DNA of 64,000 bases, taken from the NCBI RefSeq assembly GCF_000384655.1, contig NZ_ARQI01000129.1, positions 62,001 to 126,000 on the forward strand, in the 5' to 3' direction. The notes under the pieces are model-generated. The model had not been told where the DNA came from. It did no database searches and was given only the letters and a program-made list of their open reading frames with translations. The DNA comes from Brachyspira innocens ATCC 29796. GTDB taxonomy: Bacteria > Spirochaetota > Brachyspiria > Brachyspirales > Brachyspiraceae. Made by a program: the position numbers and the translations under genes. Positions 25,439-52,129 of the stretch are shown in pieces; the first letter of the stretch is position 1; each line of letters opens with the position of its first letter.

Positions 25439-25846
25439 ATGAAAAAAAATATTATTATCACTTTTAGCCTATTGTCTATCATATTATTAATTGCAGGCTG
25501 TCAGAAAAAAGAAACTTCTGAAGCTGTAAACTACAAAAATTTAAACGTAGATGAGGCTGTTGAACTAATAGCATCTAATCCTAATATTATAGTAATAGAT
25601 GTTAGAACTCCAGATGAAATCAAAGAAACAGGTACTATAGAAAACGCTTCTAACATAGATTTCAAAGCAGCTGATTTCAAAGAAAAAGTATCTGAATTAG
25701 ATAAGAGTAAAGAATATTTATTATTCTGCAGAACAGGAAACCGCTCTGGTCAGGCATCTCAAATAATGGCTGATTTAGGATTCACTAACATTAATAATTT
25801 AAAAGATGCTGGATACGATGAGTTTTCTAAAGCATTAGCTAAATAA
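25439..25846 (+). CDS. Rhodanese-domain lipoprotein 1
   Basis: 135 residues. A lipoprotein signal ends LLIAGC (Cys 21), so it should be membrane-anchored and face the periplasm. One rhodanese domain follows: VIDVRTPDEIKETG (52-65), NIDFKAADF, and the active-site loop LLFCRTGNRSGQA with catalytic Cys 97. Single-domain rhodaneses carry sulfur as a persulfide. It is a clear paralogue of the gene at 29596, which has a cleavable signal instead of a lipobox. AAGGAG lies 10 bases before the ATG. It stands upstream of the ArsS-like radical SAM gene on the same strand. Confidence 0.9.
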   Translation: MKKNIIITFSLLSIILLIAGCQKKETSEAVNYKNLNVDEAVELIASNPNIIVIDVRTPDEIKETGTIENASNIDFKAADFKEKVSELDKSKEYLLFCRTGNRSGQASQIMADLGFTNINNLKDAGYDEFSKALAK

Positions 25847-26040
25847 TTTATCATTATTTTTTTATTATGAAATATAATTTTTATAAATACAGAACATTAC
25901 ATTATAAAAATAAAATCCCTCTTATTTTCATTTAATTAGATCGTGAATCTATAAAAATAATTCAAAACTATTATTATCATTATTATTTTATATAATTAAT
26001 TACAGATAAAACAATCATATAAATAAACAATTAAAAAAAT

Positions 26041-26076
26041 TAACAAGTATAGTAATATGATTTATTATACTTGTTA
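26041..26076. repeat. 11-base inverted repeat upstream of the radical SAM gene
   Basis: TAACAAGTATA (26041-26051) and its exact complement TATACTTGTTA (26066-26076), spacer 14 bases, ending 32 bases before the start codon. No T run follows, so it is more likely an operator or leader hairpin than a terminator. The rest of 25847-26108 shows no gene. Confidence 0.55.
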
Positions 26077-26108
26077 GTTAACATTAATAAAATATTTACG
26101 GAGATATT

Positions 26109-27062
26109 ATGACTCATTTTTCAGAAATGTTAAAAAAATACTCAATTAAACTAAATAAAAAAGAGATTAAAACAATACAAATCAATACTGGATATGCCTG
26201 CAACCTAAATTGTGCTCACTGCCATGTGGATGCTAATAAAAATAGAACAGAAACCATAACAAAAGAAGTAATAGACGACTGTTTAAAATTTATAAAAAAC
26301 TGTAGAAAGGAAATTGATATTGATATTACTGGAGGAGCCCCTGAAAAATCAGAGTTTATAGAATATTTTATAAAAGAGCTTAGAAAATTAAAAAATGTAA
26401 AAAGAATAATATTAAGAACAAATTTAACTATTTTAGAAGATAAAAAAGAACTTATAGATGTTTTCAAAGAAAATAATGTAGAATTAACTGCATCCCTTCC
26501 ATGCTACACGAAAGAAAATGTAGATGAACAAAGAGGAAACGGCACTTATGAAAAATGTATAAATATGCTTAAGTATCTAAACTCTATAGGATATGGTATA
26601 GATGAAAACTTGATAATAAATTTAGTTTATAATCCTTTGGACGATTATCTGCCTTCTTCTCAAAAAGAACTTGAAAAAGATTATAAAACCAATTTAAAAA
26701 ATGATCATAATATAGTGTTTAATAATTTATATACAATAGCAAATATACCTATAGGAAGATTTGAAGAAAAACTAAAGAAAAATAATAAATACGAAGCATA
26801 TATGCAGCTTCTTGAAGATAATTTTAATGCATCAAATGCATTTAAAGTAATGTGCCTTGATACCATTAATATAGGATATGACGGAAAGGTTTATGACTGT
26901 GATTTTAATCAAATGAAAAATCTTTTATCTCAGAACGGAAAATCTTATTATATAGGAGATTTAACTATTGATGATTTTAAAGATAATAATATACCAGTTG
27001 AAGATTACTGTTACGGATGTACTGCGGGTGAAGGAAGCAGCTGTCAGGGTAATTTATCTTAA
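26109..27062 (+). CDS. ArsS/rSAM-SeCys family radical SAM protein with Cys-rich C-terminus
   Basis: 317 residues. The radical-SAM cluster cysteines are C31, C35 and C38 (GYACNLNCAHCHVDA). Landmarks of the TIGR04167-type family (arsenosugar-biosynthesis radical SAM ArsS and its selenocysteine-containing relatives) are all present: IDITGGAPEKSEF, RTNLTIL, TASLPCYTKENVDEQRGNGT, NLVYNPLDDYLPSSQ, the bridging VYDCDFNQM and a terminal YCYGCTAGEGSSCQG (C301, C304, C312). All positions are ordinary Cys; there is no in-frame TGA. Known ArsS couples a 5'-deoxyadenosyl unit to arsenic, but for most family members the substrate is unknown. Neighbours are rhodanese and methylthioribose-salvage genes; the associated transferases are at 43.6-45 kb. 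Confidence 0.85.
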   Translation: MTHFSEMLKKYSIKLNKKEIKTIQINTGYACNLNCAHCHVDANKNRTETITKEVIDDCLKFIKNCRKEIDIDITGGAPEKSEFIEYFIKELRKLKNVKRIILRTNLTILEDKKELIDVFKENNVELTASLPCYTKENVDEQRGNGTYEKCINMLKYLNSIGYGIDENLIINLVYNPLDDYLPSSQKELEKDYKTNLKNDHNIVFNNLYTIANIPIGRFEEKLKKNNKYEAYMQLLEDNFNASNAFKVMCLDTINIGYDGKVYDCDFNQMKNLLSQNGKSYYIGDLTIDDFKDNNIPVEDYCYGCTAGEGSSCQGNLS

Positions 27063-27069
27063 ATAATTA

Positions 27070-27098
27070 TTGAAATTAAAAAATCATTTTACTATACT
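27070..27098 (+). promoter_or_regulatory. Promoter of mtnA-mtnK
   Basis: TTGAAA (27070-27075), 17 bases, TATACT (27093-27098); a second TATAAT-like box lies a few bases downstream. It lies between the radical SAM stop and the mtnA start. Confidence 0.5.
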
Positions 27099-27132
27099 TT
27101 ATTATAATACATAAACTATTCGGAGACTTTTT

Positions 27133-28182
27133 ATGCAAAATAAAAATATACCTACTGTAAGATGGACTGGGGAAGAATTATATATACTTGACCAAACATT
27201 GATACCCATAACAGTAAAAGAAATAAAACTATCAAATGAAGAAGAAGCATATAATGCGATAAAAGAATTAAAGGTAAGAGGTGCTCCTGCAATAGGTGTT
27301 GCTGCTGCATATTCTTTGCTTATAAACTTAAAAAATAAAACTAATTTAAATACTAATGAGTTTATAAACTTTGTAGAAGAGAGAGCAAAATATTTAAACT
27401 CTTCAAGACCTACTGCTGTTAATTTAAGCTATGCCTTAAATAGAATGATAAACACTATAAAAGATAAAAAAGACAAATCATCTTTAGAACTATATAACAT
27501 ACTAGAAGAAGAAGCCAAAAAAATACATTCTGAAGATATTGATATATGCCAGAAAATAGGAGAATACGGTTCAGAGCTTTTAAAAGATAACTGCGGTATA
27601 TTAACACATTGCAATGCAGGAAGATTAGCTGTAAGCGGAATAGGAACAGCACTTGCCCCTATGTATATAGCTCATCAGAAAGGAATAAAAATAAGAGTAT
27701 ATGCTGATGAAACAAGACCGCTTCTTCAGGGAGCTAGACTAACTAGTTTTGAACTTCAGGAGGCTGGTATAGATGTTACTTTAATATGCGATAATATGGC
27801 TGCTTTTATAATGTCGAAAGGACTTGTTGACTTGGTAATAGTAGGCTGCGACAGGGTTGCTGAAAACGGAGACGCTGCAAATAAAATAGGAACTATGGGT
27901 GTAGCTATTTTAGCTAAATATTTCAATATACCTTTTTATATAGCATGTCCTTCTACAACATTTGATTTAAATACTAAAACTGGAAATGATATAATAATAG
28001 AAGAAAGAGATGCTAAAGAAGTTATTAATTTTGCAGGAGTACAAACTGCTCCTTTAGATATGAATGTAAGAAATCCAGCTTTTGATGTTACGCCTAATGA
28101 ACTTATAACAGGATTTATCACTGAAAAAGGCATAATAAAACCGCCTTACATAGAAAATTTAAAAGCACTTCTAACTAAATAG
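27133..28182 (+). CDS. mtnA: S-methyl-5-thioribose-1-phosphate isomerase
   Basis: 349 residues. It converts methylthioribose-1-phosphate to methylthioribulose-1-phosphate in the salvage of 5'-methylthioadenosine. Family motifs: KVRGAPAIGVAAAYSL near 50, the active-site ILTHCNAGRLA with C160, and GCDRVAENGDAANKIGT with D240; these positions match the catalytic Cys and Asp known for MtnA. Start ATG with GGAG upstream. mtnK follows 26 bases later. Confidence 0.94.
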   Translation: MQNKNIPTVRWTGEELYILDQTLIPITVKEIKLSNEEEAYNAIKELKVRGAPAIGVAAAYSLLINLKNKTNLNTNEFINFVEERAKYLNSSRPTAVNLSYALNRMINTIKDKKDKSSLELYNILEEEAKKIHSEDIDICQKIGEYGSELLKDNCGILTHCNAGRLAVSGIGTALAPMYIAHQKGIKIRVYADETRPLLQGARLTSFELQEAGIDVTLICDNMAAFIMSKGLVDLVIVGCDRVAENGDAANKIGTMGVAILAKYFNIPFYIACPSTTFDLNTKTGNDIIIEERDAKEVINFAGVQTAPLDMNVRNPAFDVTPNELITGFITEKGIIKPPYIENLKALLTK

Positions 28183-28208
28183 ATAAAATATATAAAGGAG
28201 ATATAAAT

Positions 28209-29471
28209 ATGGCTTATAAACAATTAAATATTAATACTATATCAGACTATTTAAAAACAATTGATGAAATGAAAAATATATTCTCAAGTTTTGATGATTT
28301 AGTTATAACAGAAATTGGAGATGGAAATTTAAATTATGTATACAGTATTACAAATAAAAACAATGATAAGGAAACTGTAATATTAAAACAGTCCGTTCCT
28401 TTTTTAAGATGCGTTGGAGAAAACTATCCATTAGAAAAAGACAGAATGAAAATAGAAATAAAAACACTCAAAGAACAGTACAAATTATGTCCTAATTTAG
28501 TGCCTAAAATATATTATGATTCTGATGATATGTGCGTTGTTATAATGCAGAACCTAAATAAACATAAAGTACTCAGAGGAGAAATAATAAACGGAAGAAA
28601 ATTTCCAAAAGCTGCAGAAGATTTAACCGATTTTCTTTCAAAAACATTATTTTTCACATCCGATTATTATTTAGACAGCAAAACAAAAAAGGCACTTGTC
28701 TCTGAATATATGAATGCTGAATTATGCAGTTTAACAGAGGATTTTATTTTTACTCACCCTTTTGAAGATAATGAAACCAATGTGTTTTATGATGAATTAA
28801 ATATAGAAAAAGTAAAACAATTTCAAAGAGATTCTAATCTAAAAACAGCAGCAGCTGAAATGAAATACGCCTTTATGACAAAAGCAGAAGCATTACTTCA
28901 TGGAGATTTTCATTTGGGAAGTTTTATGGGCAATGAAGAAGAAACTTATGTAATAGACCCCGAATTTGCATTTTATGGTCCTATAGGTTTTGATATAGGA
29001 AAAGCAAGTGCTAACTTTTTTATGGCTTATATATCTCAGGAATATCATCAAAAAAGACTTGGTACAAATTCTATAGAGTTTAGAAAATGGCTTTTTGATA
29101 CTGCTAAATATATGATAACAGGTACTTTAGAAAAATTTGAAAAATTATGGAAAAAACACTTAAAAGAAACTAAACCTCTATATTGGAATTATGATGAAGG
29201 AGAAAAACATTCTGAAGAGTATATAAAAACTGTATTAAACAGAATATTTAAAGATGCTGTTGGTTTTGCAGGCTGCGTACTTATAAGAAGAACTTTAGGA
29301 CTTGCTAAAAATAAAGATATTGCTTCAATAGAAGATTTAAAAGAAAGAGCAAGGCTTGATTGGATATGTTTAGAAATAGGAAGAGAGTTTTTAGTAAATA
29401 GAGATAGTATTGAAAATATAGAAAAAGTTTCTGATATTGTAAATAAATATTCAAGCATAGATAAAATTTAA
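28209..29471 (+). CDS. mtnK: S-methyl-5-thioribose kinase
   Basis: 420 residues, kinase of the aminoglycoside-phosphotransferase/choline-kinase fold. It phosphorylates methylthioribose, making the substrate of MtnA. Motifs: EIGDGNLNYVYSI (glycine loop, about 36-48), LKQSVPFLRCVGENYPLEKD, the catalytic LLHGDFHLGSFM and VIDPEFAFYGPIGFDIG (metal-binding D). AAGGAG lies 8 bases before the ATG. In organisms lacking the full methionine salvage pathway, MtnK-MtnA feed an aldolase (DHAP) shunt that can also recycle 5'-deoxyadenosine; no aldolase is in the window. Confidence 0.93.
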   Translation: MAYKQLNINTISDYLKTIDEMKNIFSSFDDLVITEIGDGNLNYVYSITNKNNDKETVILKQSVPFLRCVGENYPLEKDRMKIEIKTLKEQYKLCPNLVPKIYYDSDDMCVVIMQNLNKHKVLRGEIINGRKFPKAAEDLTDFLSKTLFFTSDYYLDSKTKKALVSEYMNAELCSLTEDFIFTHPFEDNETNVFYDELNIEKVKQFQRDSNLKTAAAEMKYAFMTKAEALLHGDFHLGSFMGNEEETYVIDPEFAFYGPIGFDIGKASANFFMAYISQEYHQKRLGTNSIEFRKWLFDTAKYMITGTLEKFEKLWKKHLKETKPLYWNYDEGEKHSEEYIKTVLNRIFKDAVGFAGCVLIRRTLGLAKNKDIASIEDLKERARLDWICLEIGREFLVNRDSIENIEKVSDIVNKYSSIDKI

Positions 29472-42631: not shown

Positions 42632-43624
42632 TCAATAAAATCTAAACATCGCCCTATTAATAATAGAACTCTTATTTTTTATCTCTAAATTATCAATACC
42701 AAGTATACTAAGAAGCAAATGCCTTACATTATTTATTTTGTTTCTATTAAAATTACCCGCACAAGTAGCACAGTAAACATATAAGTTGTTTAATCTTTTA
42801 CTCTTTAATTTTTCTATAAATCCAGACGCTATTTCTTTTTCATTAACTATAGCACAGCCTCCTAATCCGCAGCAATTAATATCATTTATCTCTTTAACAA
42901 TTATATCTCCGTCTATAATATTTAATATAGAGTTCTTTATATGTTTTGTTTTTTTATCTGGGCAAGGTATGAATAAATTAATTTCCTCATCAATATTTAA
43001 ATTAAATCTTAAACCAAGCTCATTAAGTTTTTCGTATATGCTTATAATTCTAATACTATTTATTCTAGGACTTAAAAAATAATAACAGTTGGGGCATAAT
43101 GTTACTATCTCCTTTACACCATGCGAAATCATTCTATCTTCAAGTTTTTTAACAATACTCTCTTCATCTATTCCAAGTTCAGCTATAGGTTTGCCGCAGC
43201 AGTCAAATACAGAACCTATATTATATTCTTTTTTAAATTTATTTAATATATATTTCAAAGCATCAGGATAAAATGATGAAAAATTACAGCCTGAAAATAT
43301 TACAGATTCGCTTATAACATTTTTATAATTTTTAAAAATATAATCAGTTTTTTCAAGCATAAGAAATTTATATTTTTTTTCTATTTCTTTTTTATTTTTT
43401 ATATCAGAGTTTATTTTATTTATCCTCATACACATAGATATTTTATTTCCGTCTATATCTTTAGGACAAACTATATTGCAGTCATTGCATAAAAAACAAT
43501 GATAAGCTAAATCTTCTCTTTTTGAAAATGCTTCCAAATCTATATTATACTTGCTTAAAAAACTGCATTTCTTCACACATTTATTGCAGTGTATACAGTC
43601 TTTTACATTATCAGGCATCTGCAT
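42632..43624 (-). CDS. Iron-sulfur oxidoreductase with 2x[4Fe-4S] and two CCG domains
   Basis: 330 residues, heterodisulfide-reductase-D/GlpC-like. Two ferredoxin motifs at the N-terminus: C10-x2-C13-x2-C16-x3-C20 (CIHCNKCVKKC) and C43, C46, C49, C53 (CFLCNDCNIVCP). Two CCG (DUF224) modules follow: SGCNFSSFYPDALKY with FDCCGKPIAELG near 110-150, and CPNCYYFLSP with INCCGLGGCAI and CATCAGNF to the end. Such proteins pass electrons or reduce thiol/disulfide substrates. It is the last gene of the -strand operon with the two selenodomain-associated transferases, 10 bases after the second, suggesting it supplies the redox step of that pathway. Confidence 0.87.
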   Translation of the reverse strand: MQMPDNVKDCIHCNKCVKKCSFLSKYNIDLEAFSKREDLAYHCFLCNDCNIVCPKDIDGNKISMCMRINKINSDIKNKKEIEKKYKFLMLEKTDYIFKNYKNVISESVIFSGCNFSSFYPDALKYILNKFKKEYNIGSVFDCCGKPIAELGIDEESIVKKLEDRMISHGVKEIVTLCPNCYYFLSPRINSIRIISIYEKLNELGLRFNLNIDEEINLFIPCPDKKTKHIKNSILNIIDGDIIVKEINDINCCGLGGCAIVNEKEIASGFIEKLKSKRLNNLYVYCATCAGNFNRNKINNVRHLLLSILGIDNLEIKNKSSIINRAMFRFY

Positions 43625-43634
43625 AAAAAACTCC

Positions 43635-44315
43635 TCACTTCATATTATTATATATATCTGCTATTTTTTCTATATCATAACCTTTTCTAAACATATGCTG
43701 AAGTTTCTGCATACAGATAATAGTTTTTATAATACCATTTTTTTCAAAACGTCTGGAAGAAGATATGATATAAGAATCAATATATTTTATAGGATAAAGT
43801 TTTTTTAATTTTATAGATAATTTATAGTCTTCCATAAGTGCTATATCATCAAACATTCCTATACTCATAAATAAGTCTTTTTCTATAAATATTCCCTGAT
43901 CCCCGAAGGCAATATTTCTAAACTTTACTCTCAAATTAGAAAAAAATCCGCATATACTCATTAATATTTTTTTACTGTCAAATTTTATTTTTAAACAGCC
44001 TGTTCTATTACCATTTTTGATAAACTTCTCTATTTTTATTATAACATCTTTTTCTATAATACTGTCAGCATGCAAAAATAAAAGTATATTATGTTTACTC
44101 TCCAGAGCCCCCCTATTTAACTGTTTAGCCCTTCCTTTTTCAGAGCAAACTATTTTATAATTACTCATTTCTTTTATTATATTCAAAGTTTTATCTGTGC
44201 TTCCTCCGTCAGAAAATATAACTTCAAAATCACCTTTCAAAACTTTTAAATCATTTATTAGTCTCTCTATTATATTCTCTTCATTTAAAATTGGTATTAT
44301 TATAGATACTGACAT
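43635..44315 (-). CDS. Glycosyltransferase, rSAM/selenodomain-associated transferase 2 (TIGR04283-like)
   Basis: 226 residues, GT2 fold: VSIIIPILNEENIIERLIND (2-21), VIFSDGGSTDKTLNII near 33-48, the family-specific RAKQLNRGALESKHNILLFL then HADS (about 62-85), and AFGDQGIFIEKDLF near 136. The NEE and GRAxQLNRGA features distinguish the TIGR04283 family, annotated as an arsenosugar-biosynthesis or selenodomain-associated transferase. It directly abuts the transferase-1 gene (stop and start adjacent) and is 10 bases from the Fe-S gene. Confidence 0.88.
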   Translation of the reverse strand: MSVSIIIPILNEENIIERLINDLKVLKGDFEVIFSDGGSTDKTLNIIKEMSNYKIVCSEKGRAKQLNRGALESKHNILLFLHADSIIEKDVIIKIEKFIKNGNRTGCLKIKFDSKKILMSICGFFSNLRVKFRNIAFGDQGIFIEKDLFMSIGMFDDIALMEDYKLSIKLKKLYPIKYIDSYIISSSRRFEKNGIIKTIICMQKLQHMFRKGYDIEKIADIYNNMK

Positions 44316-44975
44316 TTATAAAAGTCCAATATTTTTCAAAAAATTTCCAGTATTTTCTAAAAGTGCCTCTCCATTATTTATTCTCTCACTTAAAGAAAGT
44401 AAATCCTCATACTCATCAATATCATGCTTTTTTTCTATAACTGAATATTTAAAATTGTTTTTTTCTATAAAGAATAAAATATCTTTCAAAATACCGCTTT
44501 CAGACTTCACTATAATATCGCTGTATTTATTCATACCCACAAGATAATATCCGCCGTCAAAACTCTCACCAAATACAAAATCATTATCACTGAGTATATT
44601 AAATGCATCTATAATGTTTTCTTTAGTTATCTCTGGTATATCAGCACCAATTAAAACGCATTTATCATACCCTAAAAATAATACCTCTTTAATAGAATTA
44701 TATATTTTTTCATTAAGATTACTGCCTTCCTGTTTAATATACTCAACATCATTATTAAATATTTCTTTTAAGATATTAAAATCACCTTCTGGATTATATG
44801 ATACTATAACATCGATATCATATTCTTTTAATCCTATCATTTCTTTATATATATCTTTTAAAAAACATTTATGAATATCGGCACATTCATCTGGAGTTAA
44901 TTTTGTCTGAAGTCTTGTTTTTGTTTTTCCAGCTATTGGTATTCTAGTAAATATTATAAAGGCATTTGATTTCAT
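44316..44975 (-). CDS. Glycosyltransferase, rSAM/selenodomain-associated transferase 1 (TIGR04282/DUF2064)
   Basis: 219 residues. MKSNAFIIFTRIPIAGKTKT then RLQTKLTPDECADIH is the nucleotidyltransferase-like opening of the DUF2064 family (usual form P.pG.vKTRL); CVLIGADIPEITKENIIDAF (about 109-128) and FVFGESFDGGYYLVGMNK (about 134-151) complete the GT-A signature. Family members occur with ArsS-type radical SAM proteins and TIGR04283 transferases; the sugar acceptor is unproven in most organisms. It lies between the four-helix membrane protein and transferase 2 with no spacing, so the genes are translationally coupled. Confidence 0.9.
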   Translation of the reverse strand: MKSNAFIIFTRIPIAGKTKTRLQTKLTPDECADIHKCFLKDIYKEMIGLKEYDIDVIVSYNPEGDFNILKEIFNNDVEYIKQEGSNLNEKIYNSIKEVLFLGYDKCVLIGADIPEITKENIIDAFNILSDNDFVFGESFDGGYYLVGMNKYSDIIVKSESGILKDILFFIEKNNFKYSVIEKKHDIDEYEDLLSLSERINNGEALLENTGNFLKNIGLL

Positions 44976-45380
44976 TTATTTATTACCTTTATCTATTACT
45001 TTTTTAGAATATATAAAAATAAGTCCCCCAATAATAAATAAAAGCAGAATAATATTGATAGTATTAAGCTTTAATAATTTGCCAGCATGTAAACCATCTC
45101 TTATAATAGATGCTGGAACATATGCAGCACTTTTAGGAGACAATATTATTAGAGTAATTACCAAGAATAATATAAGATTAATAGATGAAAATATTTTAAA
45201 ATTTTTAAAAATGTTTTTTTTGCTTCCTACAAATAAAAATATTATAAAAAACAAAGCCCATACAATAAAAAAACATAAACCTATATTAACTCTCATCTCA
45301 AGCCATACATTTTTAAACATAATAAAAGCAATTATCATAGCCCATAAGAAAGTATTATAAAGTATAATAAAATATTTCAC
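44976..45380 (-). CDS. Four-helix inner-membrane protein of unknown function
   Basis: 134 residues, GTG start. Four predicted membrane helices (about 3-22, 33-52, 64-83, 108-127) with a short loop KSAAYVPASIIRDGLHAGKL before the last. I recognise no family. It sits inside the operon, 20 bases after the second YdjY-like lipoprotein gene and abutting transferase 1, which links it to the same process. Confidence 0.75.
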   Translation of the reverse strand: MKYFIILYNTFLWAMIIAFIMFKNVWLEMRVNIGLCFFIVWALFFIIFLFVGSKKNIFKNFKIFSSINLILFLVITLIILSPKSAAYVPASIIRDGLHAGKLLKLNTINIILLLFIIGGLIFIYSKKVIDKGNK

Positions 45381-45400
45381 CTATCAATCCCTTAAATTTT

Positions 45401-46102
45401 TTAATTATTATTGTCAGCTATTCTAAAAATCACTGATACTCTTGTTCCATCTGGCGGAAGTACATCTTCTCTGCCATATCTTCCTATTTTTTTCACCTCA
45501 ACAGCACCTGTTTCATAAGCAGCATCGCTTGTAATACCAACTGCACAGCTATCAAGACATAGTATGCAGCCTGTTCTTTTAGATTTAGCAGCCTCAAAAT
45601 TTCCGCCGAATCTAATATCCATAGGTCTTTCTTCATCTGATCTTATTATATCTGAAAAAGGAATTTCTTTACCCAAACCGTCCCAAGTAACAAATACATC
45701 TAATTTCTGACCATCTACTGTTTTTTCTAATTTCATATCTTCCATAGTAAGATTGTTTCCAGCTACTGCTCCTATATCTATTAATGCCTGATAAAATTCT
45801 CTCTCATCTGACAAACCTCTCAAAACTGATTTATCACCATTAACACCTCTGTCAAATACTACACCATGTCTTGTAGGACTGTTAAAATATTTGCCGTTTA
45901 CTTCTGCTGGAATGATAACTTCTTTTTTCTCTATATCAATAACAACAGGCTCAGCTCCTTCATCTCTAAGTATTACGCTTCCCATAGAGTTAGTCAATTC
46001 TGCACCATTGCTGTTTACTGATGATGATTGTTGTTTATTTCCGCATGATGATAACATTAATGCCGATAATAAACATAACATAATAATAATTTTTTTGTTC
46101 AT
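45401..46102 (-). CDS. YdjY-like lipoprotein B with C-x2-C-x3-C motif
   Basis: 233 residues. Lipoprotein signal ending LMLSSC (Cys 20). The mature domain resembles YdjY: EVIIPAEVNGKYFNSPTRHG (61-80), FYQALIDIGAVAGNNL (about 103-118), LDVFVTWDG, and a conserved cysteine motif RTGCILCLDSC (C179, C182, C186). The motif could bind a metal or cluster or form a redox centre outside the membrane. It is a tandem paralogue of the gene at 46168, 65 bases downstream of it. E. coli has ydjY between two TVP38-type genes, the same association as here. Confidence 0.85.
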   Translation of the reverse strand: MNKKIIIMLCLLSALMLSSCGNKQQSSSVNSNGAELTNSMGSVILRDEGAEPVVIDIEKKEVIIPAEVNGKYFNSPTRHGVVFDRGVNGDKSVLRGLSDEREFYQALIDIGAVAGNNLTMEDMKLEKTVDGQKLDVFVTWDGLGKEIPFSDIIRSDEERPMDIRFGGNFEAAKSKRTGCILCLDSCAVGITSDAAYETGAVEVKKIGRYGREDVLPPDGTRVSVIFRIADNNN

Positions 46103-46167
46103 ACATTACTCCTTTTAAACCTTAAAAATATTTATTTCATATTACTTATACTTAAACTAAATAAATA

Positions 46168-46866
46168 TTATTCTGCTATTCTAAATATTACATAAACCTT
46201 GCTTCCATCAGCTGGAAGTACATCTTCTCTTATATATTTATCTATTTTTTTACTGTCAAGTTCTGCAGTCGCAAAAGCAGCATCACTTGTTATAGCAATA
46301 GGACAGCTGTCAAGACATAGTATGCAGCCTGTTCTATTAGCTTTAGCAGCCTCAAAATTTCCGCCGAATCTAACATCAATAGGTCTTTCCTCTGAAGATT
46401 TTATTACTTCAGAAAAAGGTATTTCTTTATCCAAGCCGTCCCAAGTAACAAATATATCTAATTTCTGACCATCTACATATTCACTTACTTTACCATAATC
46501 TTCAAGTTTAAGATTATTTCCTGCTACTGCCCCTATATCAATTAAAGCCTGATAAACTTCTCTTTCATCTGTTAATCCTACTAAAACAGCTCTGTCTCCA
46601 TACTTACCGCCTTTAAATACTATGCCATGATGTCTTGAAGGCGTATTAAAATATTTACCATTTACTGTTGCTTCTATAATGACTTCTTTATTATCATTAT
46701 CTATCACAACAGGAACTGCATTTTCATCTCTTAATATGACGCTTCCCATCGAATTAGTTAATTGAGAATTTTCTGAAGCTGACTTATTTGATTCTTCAGA
46801 TTGTTTACTTCCGCATGATGAAAACATAAATGCAGAAAGTAAAATAATAATAATTTTTTTGTTCAT
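46168..46866 (-). CDS. YdjY-like lipoprotein A with C-x2-C-x3-C motif
   Basis: 232 residues. Lipoprotein signal ending FMFSSC (Cys 18). Very similar to lipoprotein B throughout: VNGKYFNTPSRHHGIVF, VYQALIDIGAVAGNNL, FVTWDG, and RTGCILCLDSC (C181, C184, C188). First gene of the downstream half of the operon, with a strong promoter at 47017-46989 and a 5' leader of about 115 bases. The pair probably arose by tandem duplication and both cysteine motifs were kept. Confidence 0.85.
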   Translation of the reverse strand: MNKKIIIILLSAFMFSSCGSKQSEESNKSASENSQLTNSMGSVILRDENAVPVVIDNDNKEVIIEATVNGKYFNTPSRHHGIVFKGGKYGDRAVLVGLTDEREVYQALIDIGAVAGNNLKLEDYGKVSEYVDGQKLDIFVTWDGLDKEIPFSEVIKSSEERPIDVRFGGNFEAAKANRTGCILCLDSCPIAITSDAAFATAELDSKKIDKYIREDVLPADGSKVYVIFRIAE

Positions 46867-46988
46867 ATATTACTCCTTTTAAAAACTTAAAAATATTTCG
46901 CTTAAAAGTTCTGAATACTTACGCATTCAGATGCTAAATATTTTTAAGATTATTAGCATATTAAAAAATCACTATACAAAAACTCAAA

Positions 46989-47017
46989 AATATACTGAAA
47001 ATTTTTAAGTTTGTCAA
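46989..47017 (-). promoter_or_regulatory. Promoter of the YdjY-transferase operon
   Basis: Minus-strand TTGACA (47017-47012), 17 bases, TATATT (46994-46989), about 120 bases before lipoprotein A. Confidence 0.75.
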
Positions 47018-47027
47018 TTTTTATGTT

Positions 47028-47053
47028 GTTCTTTTTCCCGCCGCAAAAAGAAC
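47028..47053. repeat. Perfect hairpin with GC-rich loop
   Basis: GTTCTTTTT (47028-47036) and AAAAAGAAC (47045-47053) around CCCGCCGC. It lies just upstream of the operon promoter and about 90 bases from the GC-rich repeat, and may be part of that repeat or end the TVP38 transcript. Confidence 0.5.
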
Positions 47054-47139
47054 CAAAAAGTGCAAGTCTAAAATAAAACTAAATCCTACTAATTATGTTT
47101 TATATGTAGAATAAATTATTAAATTTAACCTAAAATATA

Positions 47140-47345
47140 GCCTTTCGCTACTGATGGCTGTGCCTGCTTCTCGCCGCAGACGTACTTCATATGTGGCACA
47201 CATGCCTACGGCACGCAGAGCAAGGCGGACAGCGTCACAAAAGAAGTGGGGTGGCGGCACGACTGTGTACTTCGTAGCAAAGCCCTGCAAATATTTTAAA
47301 TTAAAAAAATTAATTTTTGACAAATTATAGTTGTTTAGGTATACA
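47140..47345. repeat. GC-rich intergenic repeat, copy 1, with promoter-like tail
   Basis: Between about 47140 and 47290 the sequence is more than half G+C by eye, far above the surroundings (TGCCTGCTTCTCGCCGCAGA, then GTGGCACACATGCC and GGACAGCGTCAC). The tail is TTGACA (47317-47322), 17 bases ending TTGTTTAGG, TATACA (47340-47345), pointing on the plus strand into the 3' end of the minus-strand TVP38 gene. A 76-codon open frame across it looks like a by-product of the repeat. A diverged copy is at 42430-42621. Confidence 0.6.
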
Positions 47346-47347
47346 CT

Positions 47348-48025
47348 CTAAACAGATTTATCATTAATATATTTACTCTTCAAAAATAAAGATAATACTA
47401 ATACAAATATTAAAATAATACCTGCAATCAAAAAATATAAATATCTGTTATTATCAGAAACTATACCTACAGAAGCTATAGTAAATAAAGATATACCCGG
47501 AAGCATAAATAAAAATGTATACAATGAATACTTCACAAAGCTTACATCAGTTATACCATAAGCAAAATTCTGTATATTATAAGGAAATAAAGGTACTAAC
47601 CTAGTAATCATCAAAAGGATCATGGCATTTTTATTTCCTTCCTCAAATAAAAGTTTATTTAAATATTTATTTTTCTCTACCAATGGCTTTATAGTATCTT
47701 TTAGAAAAAACCTAGCTATTAAAAAAGAAATTACAGCAGCCAAAGTAGCAGAAAAAGAACATAATATTATGCCAAGTACAGGACCAAACAGTAATCCAGA
47801 AAATAAAGCAAATGCTATACCTGGTAAAGCTAACACAGAACTTCCTATAGCTGTTACTACAATATATATGATAGAAGCCCTAATTATATTATCTCCAAGT
47901 ATATTTCTAAAATCTTCCAAATTATGTATTCTGTCATGCAGTTTATAATGATGATTTAATATAATAACAGCTATAACTGCTGCCAAAAATATAATAAGTT
48001 TTATATATTTAGTTTTTAACTTCAT
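47348..48025 (-). CDS. TVP38/TMEM64 family membrane protein B
   Basis: 225 residues with about five to six hydrophobic helices. The DedA/SNARE-associated VTT core is seen in VLALPGIAFALFSGLLFGPV (about 63-82), LIARFFLKDT, and MILLMITRLVPLFPYNIQNF then AYGITDVSFVKY near 135-165. These proteins are related to lipid scramblases and undecaprenyl-phosphate carriers; the E. coli relatives are YdjX and YdjZ. It overlaps the preceding TVP38 gene by 17 bases. Confidence 0.88.
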   Translation of the reverse strand: MKLKTKYIKLIIFLAAVIAVIILNHHYKLHDRIHNLEDFRNILGDNIIRASIIYIVVTAIGSSVLALPGIAFALFSGLLFGPVLGIILCSFSATLAAVISFLIARFFLKDTIKPLVEKNKYLNKLLFEEGNKNAMILLMITRLVPLFPYNIQNFAYGITDVSFVKYSLYTFLFMLPGISLFTIASVGIVSDNNRYLYFLIAGIILIFVLVLSLFLKSKYINDKSV

Positions 48026-48764
48026 TATTATTTTCAGCCTTATTTTCTGCTTTTTGAGTTTTATCTTTTCTATTTTTATATATCTGTCTTAATAAAATTA
48101 TCAATGCAGACAATGCAAACAATATTAAAAGCCCAGTAACAAACAGTTTAGCACCTCCAGTGAGCATGCCTCCTACATATGAATATACTATTGTAGCAGG
48201 AAGCTGTCCTATTCCAGTAGCTATAAAAAAACTTAAAAAATTCATAGATGTCAATCCTGCTGCATAGCTTACTATATCAAAAGACATAAAAGGAAGAAGC
48301 CTTGCTATAAGCACACTTTGTTTTCCATATTTTTCAAAAAACTCATCTATTTGTTTTAATCCAGTCTTGCTTGTAAGTTTTTCAACAAAATCTCTTCCTA
48401 ATATTCTTGCTATATAAAAACATACAGCAGCACCTGCCATAGCACTAGACCAAGATAATAATGCTCCAGCTTTCCAGCCGAATAAATTAGCATTTGCAAA
48501 TGTGAGTAAAAATGCTGGCAAAGGTGCTATTACAGACTGAAGTACCATAAGTATAAATGAAACTGCCATAGCATAATGTCCGTAAGAAGCTACAAATTCC
48601 TTTACTACATTAAAATCACCAGAGGCAAACATTTTAAATATTGTATTAAGATTACTATTTACCTGCGGTATAAAGAAATAAGAAAGTACTGCAAGCAAAA
48701 TTATTAATATTAAAATTACTTTTTTTATTATTGATTTTTTATTTGAAACATTTGACTGTTCCAT
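48009..48764 (-). CDS. TVP38/TMEM64 family membrane protein A
   Basis: 251 residues. The VTT core contains PLPAFLLTFANANLFGWKAG (about 92-111), GAAVCFYIARILGRDFVEKL and VLIARLLPFMSFDIVSYAAG (about 151-170). The tail is charged and ends in a lysine-rich stretch. TAGGAG lies 9 bases before the ATG. It is the first of the two overlapping TVP38 genes, matching the ydjX/ydjZ pairing in E. coli. Probably moves a lipid-linked intermediate or supports membrane sorting; the substrate is unknown. Confidence 0.88.
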   Translation of the reverse strand: MEQSNVSNKKSIIKKVILILIILLAVLSYFFIPQVNSNLNTIFKMFASGDFNVVKEFVASYGHYAMAVSFILMVLQSVIAPLPAFLLTFANANLFGWKAGALLSWSSAMAGAAVCFYIARILGRDFVEKLTSKTGLKQIDEFFEKYGKQSVLIARLLPFMSFDIVSYAAGLTSMNFLSFFIATGIGQLPATIVYSYVGGMLTGGAKLFVTGLLILFALSALIILLRQIYKNRKDKTQKAENKAENNNEVKN

Positions 48765-49270: not shown

Positions 49271-49888
49271 ATGAAAACAAAAGCGTATTCATTAACTTTT
49301 TGTGCTATAGGCGTAGCATTAAACATAGTGCTTTCATTTATAGCAAAACACTTAAATATCCCATTTGTATTTTTCGATGTAATGGGTACAGTATTAAGCG
49401 GTGCAGTACTAGGGCCATTATACGGAGCTATTACTGGATTCGTTACCAATTTAATTACTTCTATGGTTAATAATCCTGCAGAACTTCCTTATGCTATTGT
49501 TAATATGATGATAGGTATAATAACAGGATTTATTTCTATTAAGTTCGGATTCAAAATTCATACAGCTATAATAACAGGTGTAATACTTGCTGTTGCAGCA
49601 CCTTTAGTAGGAACTCCTATAACAGTAATATTATACGGCGGATTAGCTGGCGGAACTATGGATATTATGACTGGATTCTTAATTCAAAGCGGTCAGAAAA
49701 TATTTACTTCTGCATTTATACCTAGAATAATATCAAATATTATAGATAAGCCTTTATCTTGTATAATAGCATATATTATAATTTTAAGAATGCCTAGCTC
49801 TCTTCTCTCTAAAATAACAACAAATAAAAAATTATTAGCTCAAAAAAATGCTGCTTCTTCAAAAGATGAGGATATAGATAATGAATAG
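49271..49888 (+). CDS. ECF transporter substrate-binding S component
   Basis: 205 residues, about six membrane helices, no ATPase. MKTKAYSLTFCAIGVALNIV, FFDVMGTVLSGAVLGPLYGA and GFVTNLITSMVNNP have the look of an ECF S component (vitamin or nucleobase-precursor type), with the small-residue helix 1 used to dock on EcfT. The ligand is unknown; next to a TudS-related desulfidase a sulfur-containing base or similar compound is likely. AAAAGGA precedes the ATG. It overlaps the desulfidase gene by 8 bases. Confidence 0.82.
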   Translation: MKTKAYSLTFCAIGVALNIVLSFIAKHLNIPFVFFDVMGTVLSGAVLGPLYGAITGFVTNLITSMVNNPAELPYAIVNMMIGIITGFISIKFGFKIHTAIITGVILAVAAPLVGTPITVILYGGLAGGTMDIMTGFLIQSGQKIFTSAFIPRIISNIIDKPLSCIIAYIIILRMPSSLLSKITTNKKLLAQKNAASSKDEDIDNE

Positions 49889-50399
49889 GTCAAAAAAATT
49901 GGCTGTATTATCGCATTGCATATTAAATCAAAATGCTGTTGTCAAAGGAGAATACAAAGATATGAATGTATTTTTTTCATTTGTACAAGAGCTATTTAAA
50001 AATAATATAGGAATACTTCAGCTTCCATGCCCTGAAACAGAATGCTACGGATTAAAAAGATGGGGACATGTAAAAGAACAATTCAATAACTCTGGATATA
50101 AAAAATATGCTAGAGAAACTCTGAATTCATTTGCTGATACTCTTAAAGAATATATTAACAATGGATATGAAATAGTAGGAATATACGGAATAGCTGGAAG
50201 TCCTAGCTGCGGAGTTAATCTTACATGCTCTGCTGACTGGGAAGGAGAAGTAGGACTTTATAAAGATAAAGAAGATATTACATCAAGAGTAAAAATGATA
50301 AATGAAAGCGGTATATTTATGGAGATGTTTAAATCTATACTAAAAGAAAATAATATAAATATACCTTTTTATGATGTTGATGATTATTTAAAAAAATAG
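49881..50399 (+). CDS. TudS-related putative desulfidase (CD3072-like, DUF523 relative)
   Basis: 172 residues. Cysteines in the TudS/DUF523 pattern: SHCILNQNAV (C13), LPCPETECYG (C50, C55) and GSPSCGVNLTCS (C110, C116). TudS enzymes use a [4Fe-5S]-type cluster held by three cysteines to remove sulfur from thiouracil. This protein resembles the shorter CD3072-type branch found beside ECF genes in clostridia; its substrate is not proven. It overlaps the S-component gene and is followed by a strong terminator hairpin. Confidence 0.8.
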   Translation: MNRSKKLAVLSHCILNQNAVVKGEYKDMNVFFSFVQELFKNNIGILQLPCPETECYGLKRWGHVKEQFNNSGYKKYARETLNSFADTLKEYINNGYEIVGIYGIAGSPSCGVNLTCSADWEGEVGLYKDKEDITSRVKMINESGIFMEMFKSILKENNINIPFYDVDDYLKK

Positions 50400-50420
50400 A
50401 TATTTTTATTAACAAAAATA

Positions 50421-50460
50421 TATTGGGGTTTTATTATTAAAACCCCAATATTAATTTTTT
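50421..50460 (+). terminator. Strong terminator/attenuator inside the ECF operon
   Basis: Perfect 13-base stem TATTGGGGTTTTA (50421-50433)/TAAAACCCCAATA (50438-50450), four-base loop, then TTAATTTTTT. It separates the S/desulfidase genes from the ATPase genes, only 21-30 bases before the next start. Confidence 0.8.
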
Positions 50461-50480
50461 ATTTATTAGGAAAGTTTATA

Positions 50481-51311
50481 ATGAGTAAAGCTGTAGAGTT
50501 TAAAAACGTATGCTTTTCATATATTCAAGATGATGAAAACTACTTTCTTGACAATATTAATCTCTATATTGATGAAAACAGTTATTTAGCACTTCTTGGA
50601 AAAAACGGAAGCGGAAAATCTACATTAATAAAACTTATGTTTGGAATAGAAAAAGCAAATAAAGGCGAAATAAAAATATTTGATATGAATATAAATGAAA
50701 AAGCATATGAAATATATAAAATAGCAAGCCTAGTTTTTCAAAATCCTGATGATCAAATAGTAGCGGACACTATAGAACTTGATATCGCTTTTACTATGGA
50801 AAATTATTCTATACCAAGCAAAGAGATGCATAAAAGAATAGATGAAGTACTTGAAATAGTAGAACTTTCAAATAAAAGAAAAGATAAAGTACATTCATTA
50901 TCAGGAGGAGAAAAACAAAGACTATGTATAGCTTCATCTTTGGTATTAAATCCTAAAATACTTGTATTAGATGAACCTACATCTATGCTTGATGCTGAAA
51001 ATAGAATGAAAGTAATTGAAGTATTAAAGAAAATACATTCAATGGGTACTGCTATAATTATAGTAACTCATCATATTAATGAAATAGAACATTGCAATGA
51101 AGTTGTATTTATGGATAATGGAAGTGTATCTTTTAAAGGCTCTTCAGATGAATTTGTAAGGGCTTTAATAAAAAATGATGAATTTCATAAGCTAAATATG
51201 CCTATTAATTTTAAGTTGGCTTATGAATTATATAAAAATAAAAATGTATTAATAGATAAAGATATTTTTAACTATAAAAAGGTTTGTGAAAGTTTATGGA
51301 AATATGTTTAA
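50481..51311 (+). CDS. ecfA1: ECF transporter ATPase A1
   Basis: 276 residues, ABC ATPase of the energy-coupling module. Walker A GKNGSGKST (40-48), Q-loop VFQNPDDQIVADTI near 91, signature HSLSGGEKQRLCIASSL near 137, Walker B LVLDEPTSMLD near 164 and the switch His in VTHHINEIEH. FQNPDDQ is the hallmark of EcfA. AGGAAAG precedes the ATG. It overlaps the second ATPase gene by 16 bases. Confidence 0.94.
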   Translation: MSKAVEFKNVCFSYIQDDENYFLDNINLYIDENSYLALLGKNGSGKSTLIKLMFGIEKANKGEIKIFDMNINEKAYEIYKIASLVFQNPDDQIVADTIELDIAFTMENYSIPSKEMHKRIDEVLEIVELSNKRKDKVHSLSGGEKQRLCIASSLVLNPKILVLDEPTSMLDAENRMKVIEVLKKIHSMGTAIIIVTHHINEIEHCNEVVFMDNGSVSFKGSSDEFVRALIKNDEFHKLNMPINFKLAYELYKNKNVLIDKDIFNYKKVCESLWKYV

Positions 51312-52129
51312 AAAACTTAAATGCAGGATACATAATAAGCAAAAAAGAAAAAAAACTAATAACTGAAAATTTAAATGCTGTGTTTGAAAGCGGAAAATTT
51401 CATTTTTTGGCAGGAGTATCTGGAAGCGGAAAATCTACACTTCTTGAAACTATATGCCTGCTTATAAAAAAAATATCAGGTGAAATATTATTTGATAATA
51501 AGAATATAGAAGACAAAAATAATCTAAAAGAGTTTAGACAATCATCTGGAATAATGCTTCAATACACAGAAAAACAATTTTTTAATAATACAGTAAGAGA
51601 AGAAATAACATTTAACCTAAAAAGACAAAAACTTGATAATAAAGAAATTAATAAAAAATTAAGAGCAACTCTAGAAATATTAAATATTGATAAAAAAATA
51701 TTAAAAGCCTCTCCGTTTGAAATAAGCGGCGGTCAGAAAAGAACAATAGCACTAGCCTCTATAATAATAACCTCTCCTAAAATATTATTTTTAGATGAAC
51801 CTACAGCAGGACTTGACTTTGAAAGCAAAAGTACATTCATGAATACTATAAAAAATTTAAATAAAACTTCTAATATTACTATTATACAGTCATCTCATAT
51901 ACTAGATGATATAATAGAATACGGAGATTATGTTTTTATTATTAATAAAAATAAAAAATATATTCAAGGAAAACCAAAAGATTTATTATTTTCAAAAAAT
52001 ATACTTAAAGAATATAATCTAATAGAACCTGAAATTTTCTTATATATAGAAGAGCTTAAAAAATTAGGAATGAATAATATTGATAATGTATCAAATGCTG
52101 ATGAATTAATACAAAAATTATTTTATTAA
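51296..52129 (+). CDS. ecfA2: ECF transporter ATPase A2
   Basis: 277 residues. Walker A GVSGSGKST (40-48), Q-loop region MLQYTEKQFFNNTV near 85, signature FEISGGQKRTIALASI near 141, Walker B ILFLDEPTAGLD near 164, switch His in IQSSHILDDI. QYTEKQ in place of QNP is the usual EcfA2 form. It pairs with A1 as the ATPase heterodimer. Starts within the A1 gene. Confidence 0.93.
   Translation: MEICLKNLNAGYIISKKEKKLITENLNAVFESGKFHFLAGVSGSGKSTLLETICLLIKKISGEILFDNKNIEDKNNLKEFRQSSGIMLQYTEKQFFNNTVREEITFNLKRQKLDNKEINKKLRATLEILNIDKKILKASPFEISGGQKRTIALASIIITSPKILFLDEPTAGLDFESKSTFMNTIKNLNKTSNITIIQSSHILDDIIEYGDYVFIINKNKKYIQGKPKDLLFSKNILKEYNLIEPEIFLYIEELKKLGMNNIDNVSNADELIQKLFY

Follow-up and report, generated by a model that had tools for sequence, protein, structure and literature searches.

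Eight genes on the minus strand of a 64,000-nucleotide stretch of Brachyspira innocens ATCC 29796 DNA (contig NZ_ARQI01000129.1, positions 62,001 to 126,000; the whole of this stretch is called the window) encode two TVP38/TMEM64 proteins, two YdjY-domain lipoproteins, a 134-residue membrane protein (HP134), a TIGR04282 protein (NT82), a TIGR04283 protein (GT83) and an iron-sulfur protein with two CCG domains (CCG). A prediction made from the sequence alone, here called the original prediction, had read these genes as one operon and one pathway connected with an ArsS-like radical SAM protein encoded elsewhere in the window. An open reading frame check found all eight between 42632 and 48764, on the strand and at the coordinates predicted, including the overlap of the TVP38 genes and the abutting NT82 and GT83 genes. 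The predicted families, that of ArsS included, agree with the model scores and matches described below.

Read along the minus strand, the set begins with the TVP38 pair. TVPa (48009–48764) is YdjZ-like and contains a VTT domain, TVPb (47348–48025) is YdjX-like, and the two genes overlap by 17 bases. They score 94.6 and 67.8 bits against the VTT_dom/TVP38 model (PF09335, cut-off 33.9). In Escherichia coli ydjY lies with two TVP38 genes in the order ydjX-ydjY-ydjZ, as the original prediction had stated; YdjZ is 58% identical to the TVPa-type Brachyspira copy at locus L052, and YdjX is 32% identical to the TVPb-type copy there. TVPa reaches 41 bits against the model of the undecaprenyl-phosphate transporter UptA (DedA), below its cut-off of 250. 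TVP38 proteins belong to the COG0398 group, whose nearest relatives are the scramblases of eukaryotes and for which undecaprenyl phosphate is an unlikely substrate (PMC10127716).

The two lipoproteins, YdjY1 (46168–46866) and YdjY lipoprotein 2 (45401–46102), score 134.3 and 146.9 bits against NF040466, where the cut-off is 50, and an alignment shows a GCxxCLDSC motif common to YdjY proteins. The AlphaFold model of lipoprotein 2 is good (pLDDT 88), and a structure search with it found no solved fold in the PDB at E<=0.001. Sequence searches of the PDB with YdjY and with CCG gave nothing useful. HP134 (44976–45380) is a four-helix membrane protein with four hydrophobic segments and no match in a Pfam scan. 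Its family, for which Pfam has no model, is recognisable in alignment by WLEMR and VPASxxRE motifs, and it comes after ydjY in several phyla.

NT82 (44316–44975) directly follows HP134, GT83 (43635–44315) directly follows NT82, and CCG (42632–43624) begins 10 bases beyond GT83. NT82 scores 153.8 bits against TIGR04282, over the curated NCBI cut-off of 134, and NCBI names the family a glycosyltransferase. It also matches CofC (PF01983, 2.5e-11) and DUF2064 (PF09837), its solved relative is a putative nucleotide-diphospho-sugar transferase (PDB 3CGX, 7e-18), and its alignment conserves RxPxxGxxKTRL, LIGxDIP, DGGYYL and RDID. Despite the database name, NT82 therefore looks like a sugar-activating, CofC-like nucleotidyltransferase, and on the family and PDB evidence we rejected a role as a second glycosyltransferase. 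GT83 is a GT2 glycosyltransferase that scores 253.3 bits against TIGR04283 (curated cut-off 182); the next family reaches 42.8 bits. The CCG protein (PF02754) has two N-terminal CxxCxxCxxxC motifs, for [4Fe-4S] clusters, followed by two complete CCG sets. This is the arrangement of HdrD/GlpC-type proteins. It also shares the double CCG pattern of the pyridine nucleotide-disulfide oxidoreductase/dicluster-binding protein NF045663, but it lacks the FAD oxidoreductase part and matches only model positions 306–640, with 97.5 bits against a cut-off of 530. In Brachyspira sp. G79 the CCG gene (L055:9660–10653) is disrupted, first by an early stop codon and further on by a change of frame.

Spacing in the set is tight except for a 481-base gap (46867–47347), which parts the TVP38 pair from the remaining genes. 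It holds an interspersed repeat of about 360 bases, dozens of other, mostly partial, copies of which lie across this genome. It also holds a TTGACA-17-TATATT promoter-like site (47017–46989), although promoter-like matches in the region are no commoner than in shuffled sequence. The same gap is only 25 bases in the congener locus L048. The single operon of the original prediction thus stands as the commoner state, with the same gene order in congeners; in this genome the set is not one tight operon and may give two transcripts.

The ArsS gene (26109–27062) lies on the plus strand, and its product scores 396.5 bits against TIGR04167, over the curated cut-off of 300. Upstream of it, here and in congeners, is a gene for a rhodanese-domain protein (25439–25846, plus strand). 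Downstream on the same strand are genes for the S-methyl-5-thioribose-1-phosphate isomerase MtnA (27133–28182; TIGR00512, 440.7 bits) and a second genomic copy of the S-methyl-5-thioribose kinase MtnK (28209–29471; TIGR01767, 501 bits). In the window this unit is about 15.6 kb from the TVP38-YdjY operon. In four other Brachyspira genomes (G018, G022, G016 and G002; loci L048, L049, L050 and L058) the two adjoin each other back to back, in divergent orientation. In the window the cluster is split in two, with the present locus as one half and rhodanese-arsS-mtnA-mtnK (25439–29471) as the other.

The original prediction turned on whether these families occur together beyond this locus, and they do, in the genus and across phyla. 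Nine congeners show the gene order of the locus too, as do bacteria of other phyla, so that chance does not explain it. TIGR04283 exceeds its cut-off in nine of 26 Brachyspira genomes, exactly the nine that have YdjY and the CCG protein, and ArsS is found in seven of these and in none of the other Brachyspira genomes. Across 393 Spirochaetota genomes ArsS is present in 16 of the 22 with TIGR04283, and outside Brachyspira in nine of 13. Hypergeometric tests, all of which ignore shared ancestry, give p values of 3e-7 for the joint presence of YdjY, GT83 and CCG in Brachyspira, 7e-13 for ArsS with TIGR04283 in the phylum and 1e-7 for the same pair outside the genus. Within the phylum, YdjY occurs outside the genus only in G049 (247 genomes searched), where TIGR04283 and ArsS are present as well but not all at a single locus.

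An alignment scan for YdjY with one genome per species gave 80 loci, 74 of them outside Brachyspira, for which flanks of up to 10 kb were fetched. Among these 74, GT83 lies within 10 kb in 16, NT82 in 14 and ArsS in 13. Were every genome to have one GT83, chance would place it near ydjY at a rate of about 0.7% per locus. The loci come from several phyla and include Campylobacter, Facklamia, Synergistaceae, Pelotomaculum, Peptococcaceae and Syntrophus. A check against the named families at stringent E-values was passed by 15/16 of the aligned GT83 proteins and 15/18 of the aligned radical SAM proteins. Homologues of CCG and HP134 also recur next to ydjY outside Brachyspira. In Synergistaceae the genes are interleaved (TVP-CCG-TVP-YdjY-ArsS-GT83), and in Anaerococcus (L179) TIGR04169, ArsS, ArsM and YdjY are consecutive, which ties YdjY to arsenic methylation genes. 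The back-to-back arrangement in congeners, the matching presence and absence and the linkage in other phyla together support the view that the TVP38-YdjY operon and ArsS form one functional unit. To this extent the single pathway of the original prediction stands, with NT82 read as a nucleotidyltransferase rather than a second glycosyltransferase.

Other ydjY loci have different neighbours. GT83 is found in 0/14 loci with a ynjB-type binding protein. The YdjY-TVP38 module therefore comes in two contexts or more, one of them that of the E. coli ynj genes and another that of ArsS/GT83. In a tree of GT83 proteins the Brachyspira sequences group with Campylobacter and Facklamia, then with Synergistota, and stand away from most copies in other spirochaetes; the deeper forks have moderate support (ultrafast bootstraps 82 to 90). 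This grouping suggests that the gene set has spread horizontally. Some clusters also contain a Na+/solute symporter and a weakly metallophosphoesterase-like protein (L049:7125–9430, L050:5936–8223, L137:17461–19766 and L158:7599–9870), with Brachyspira to Campylobacter identities of 57–62% and 40–48%, respectively. ArsS-like matches at 25–28% in L123, L134 and L149 belong to another radical SAM family; these ydjY loci also have an LPG_synthase_TM protein. One 2.6-Mb record of Acetoanaerobium noterae (L094, NZ_CP154629.1), which is labelled a plasmid, has CCG, a ynjBCD-like ABC transporter, a CDP-alcohol phosphatidyltransferase, YdjY and two TVP38 genes consecutively. Next to the operon in the window (49271–52129) are genes for a CD3073-family ECF transporter S component, a TudS-related CD3072 protein and an ECF ATPase. 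This set also adjoins the operon in L053 and L055, and is not found in L048–L050.

Two known systems resemble the locus. Arsenosugar clusters, named from their NCBIfam families ArsM, ArsS, TIGR04282, TIGR04283 and TIGR04169, share ArsS and both transferase families, and the one on the Acinetobacter portensis plasmid NZ_CP096121.1 has TVP38 beside them. These clusters have ArsM and TIGR04169, whereas Brachyspira has neither. The Acinetobacter-type cluster has a TVP38-FAD reductase fusion where Brachyspira has YdjY, HP134 and CCG, and MtnP where Brachyspira has MtnK and MtnA. The Brachyspira locus is a variant of the arsenosugar cluster. The membrane and periplasmic branch had been predicted to be undescribed in this company; since TVP38 is already found with these genes in Proteobacteria, only YdjY, the CCG protein and HP134 are undescribed. 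A literature search, made mostly without subscription journals, found no paper joining YdjY or TVP38 to arsenosugar genes, which is weak evidence of novelty. The E. coli ydjXYZ-ynjABCD-ynjE-ynjF locus is FNR-activated (PMC3688515). It shares with Brachyspira the two TVP38 genes with ydjY, the YdjY cysteine motif and a nearby rhodanese (ynjE), but it lacks ArsS, TIGR04282, TIGR04283 and the CCG protein, and its ynjBCD ABC transporter and ynjF CDP-alcohol phosphatidyltransferase have no counterpart in the Brachyspira loci.

We propose that this mobile-looking gene set of a gut spirochaete probably makes an activated ribose with an unusual atom attached, such as arsenic or an element like it, joins this sugar to a second molecule and deals with the product at the membrane. 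ArsS would couple the 5'-deoxyadenosyl group of S-adenosylmethionine to a nucleophile X, giving 5'-X-5'-deoxyadenosine. In characterised ArsS proteins X is dimethylarsenic. Adenine would then be removed by a nucleosidase or phosphorylase and, with a kinase, 5-X-5-deoxyribose 1-phosphate would be formed; the kinase would be MtnK here, whereas other lineages would use a kinase of the APH type or else the phosphorylase MtnP. NT82 would convert this phosphate to a nucleoside diphosphate sugar, and GT83 would pass the 5-X-ribosyl unit on, in the manner of arsenosugars, to an acceptor that may be the glycerol of a phospholipid. Finally, the TVP38 pair would move or flip the product, with redox handling provided by the HdrD-like CCG protein and, in the periplasm, the YdjY lipoproteins. 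The analysis establishes the genes, their families, and the conservation and linkage of the cluster; we infer the reactions in this organism, the element X with arsenic as its native identity, the acceptor and the last step.

The strongest support for the route is that different enzyme families recur at the same step. An APH kinase is fused to NT82 in Campylobacter and Facklamia and stands separately beside NT82 and GT83 in L221 and L227. A nucleoside hydrolase lies near NT82 and GT83 in Facklamia and L227, the methylthioadenosine (MTA) phosphorylase MtnP does so in Acinetobacter, Burkholderia and L174, and MtnK is beside arsS in Brachyspira. Such linkage to kinases, nucleoside hydrolases and MTA phosphorylases speaks for passage through ribose 1-phosphate. 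Dimethylarsenoriboside phospholipids are known in microalgae, and in the literature covered here the steps of arsenosugar formation after ArsS are given only as 'glycosidation' (PMC4632732). The scramblase-like TVP38 subgroup (PMC10127716) and the lipid-related neighbours of YdjY at other loci, CDP-alcohol phosphatidyltransferase and LPG_synthase_TM, make a lipid product plausible. The lipid linkage, the export and the two-sided redox chemistry at the membrane that were originally predicted would be putative parts of this scheme.

Several observations weigh against the scheme. ArsM (NF008823, E<=1e-15) and the TIGR04169 peroxidase-like protein are each found in 0/26 Brachyspira genomes, so that any methylated arsenical would need an external source, unless X is something else. 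ArsS is missing from two of the nine cluster-bearing genomes; this and the lack of ArsM count against the metalloid product of the original prediction. The second MtnK copy also occurs in 8/17 Brachyspira genomes without the cluster; we therefore rejected it as cluster-specific, and its presence is only suggestive. MtnA would drain the proposed intermediate. E. coli has ydjXYZ without ArsS or the transferases alongside, and the membrane module therefore has a wider role than the ArsS pathway. On balance, we give the whole route, from the ArsS product through ribose 1-phosphate and the activated sugar to a glycoside handled by TVP38, YdjY and CCG, an even chance of being correct.

The arsenosugar part could be right and the TVP38-YdjY-HP134-CCG genes could form an independent membrane module for thiol/redox chemistry or metalloid handling, co-travelling as a detoxification island and not acting on the product. 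YdjY-TVP38 does occur with ynjBCD-type ABC transporters and CDP-alcohol phosphatidyltransferase without ArsS or GT83, and the absence of GT83 from the ynjB-type loci fits this. The exact match of presence and absence within Brachyspira, the interleaved gene order in Synergistaceae and the TVP38-FAD reductase fusions within ArsS clusters argue against it, and we regard such independence as rather unlikely. The nucleophile might instead be sulfur or selenium, with rhodaneses supplying persulfide or selenide and a thio- or seleno-ribosyl compound as product. A rhodanese adjoins arsS, a YnjE-like protein (50% identity) is present in L123, and the genus lacks ArsM. SelD is present in 25/26 Brachyspira genomes, but with or without the cluster, so it is uninformative on selenium as a driver. 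ArsS scores as the TIGR04167 equivalog, and ArsM and TIGR04169 lie next to ArsS and YdjY in Anaerococcus; this version of the chemistry seems to us improbable.

A pathway of the LicA/LicC kind would decorate envelope glycans: the APH-type kinase together with TIGR04282 would activate an amino alcohol or other small alcohol, which would then be attached by GT83 or a different enzyme. It would explain the kinase-nucleotidyltransferase fusion, and APH-family kinases act on many alcohols. It would not account for ArsS, nucleoside hydrolase and MTA phosphorylase being associated with these genes, nor for TIGR04282 being nearest to CofC, and we think it very improbable. GT2 domains are common and GT83 also matches the general model PF00535, so that an ordinary envelope GT2 gene might lie beside TVP38 and YdjY genes by chance. 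We rejected this assignment on the TIGR04283 score, as the original prediction would have it, and with GT83 near ydjY so far above the expected frequency we give coincidence hardly any credence.

In its widest form our proposal is that YdjY, TVP38, HP134 and CCG together form a membrane system, hitherto undescribed, that serves a 5-deoxyribosyl lipid (arseno- or other X-substituted). It would be tied to ArsS via the kinase, TIGR04282 and TIGR04283, spread by gene transfer among host-associated bacteria, and use an imported or non-arsenic substrate in cells without ArsM, with E. coli ydjXYZ as a cousin. We offer this full version tentatively and think it unlikely to hold in every part. For the steps after ArsS, a concrete order of enzymes follows from the kinases, nucleosidases and nucleotidyltransferase found in linkage, and the NCBI name for TIGR04282 appears misleading. 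The uncharacterised E. coli ydjXYZ proteins gain a functional context via arsenosugar enzymes, and the cluster would point to a chemistry of organometalloid sugars among bacteria of the gut and mouth that lack ArsM.

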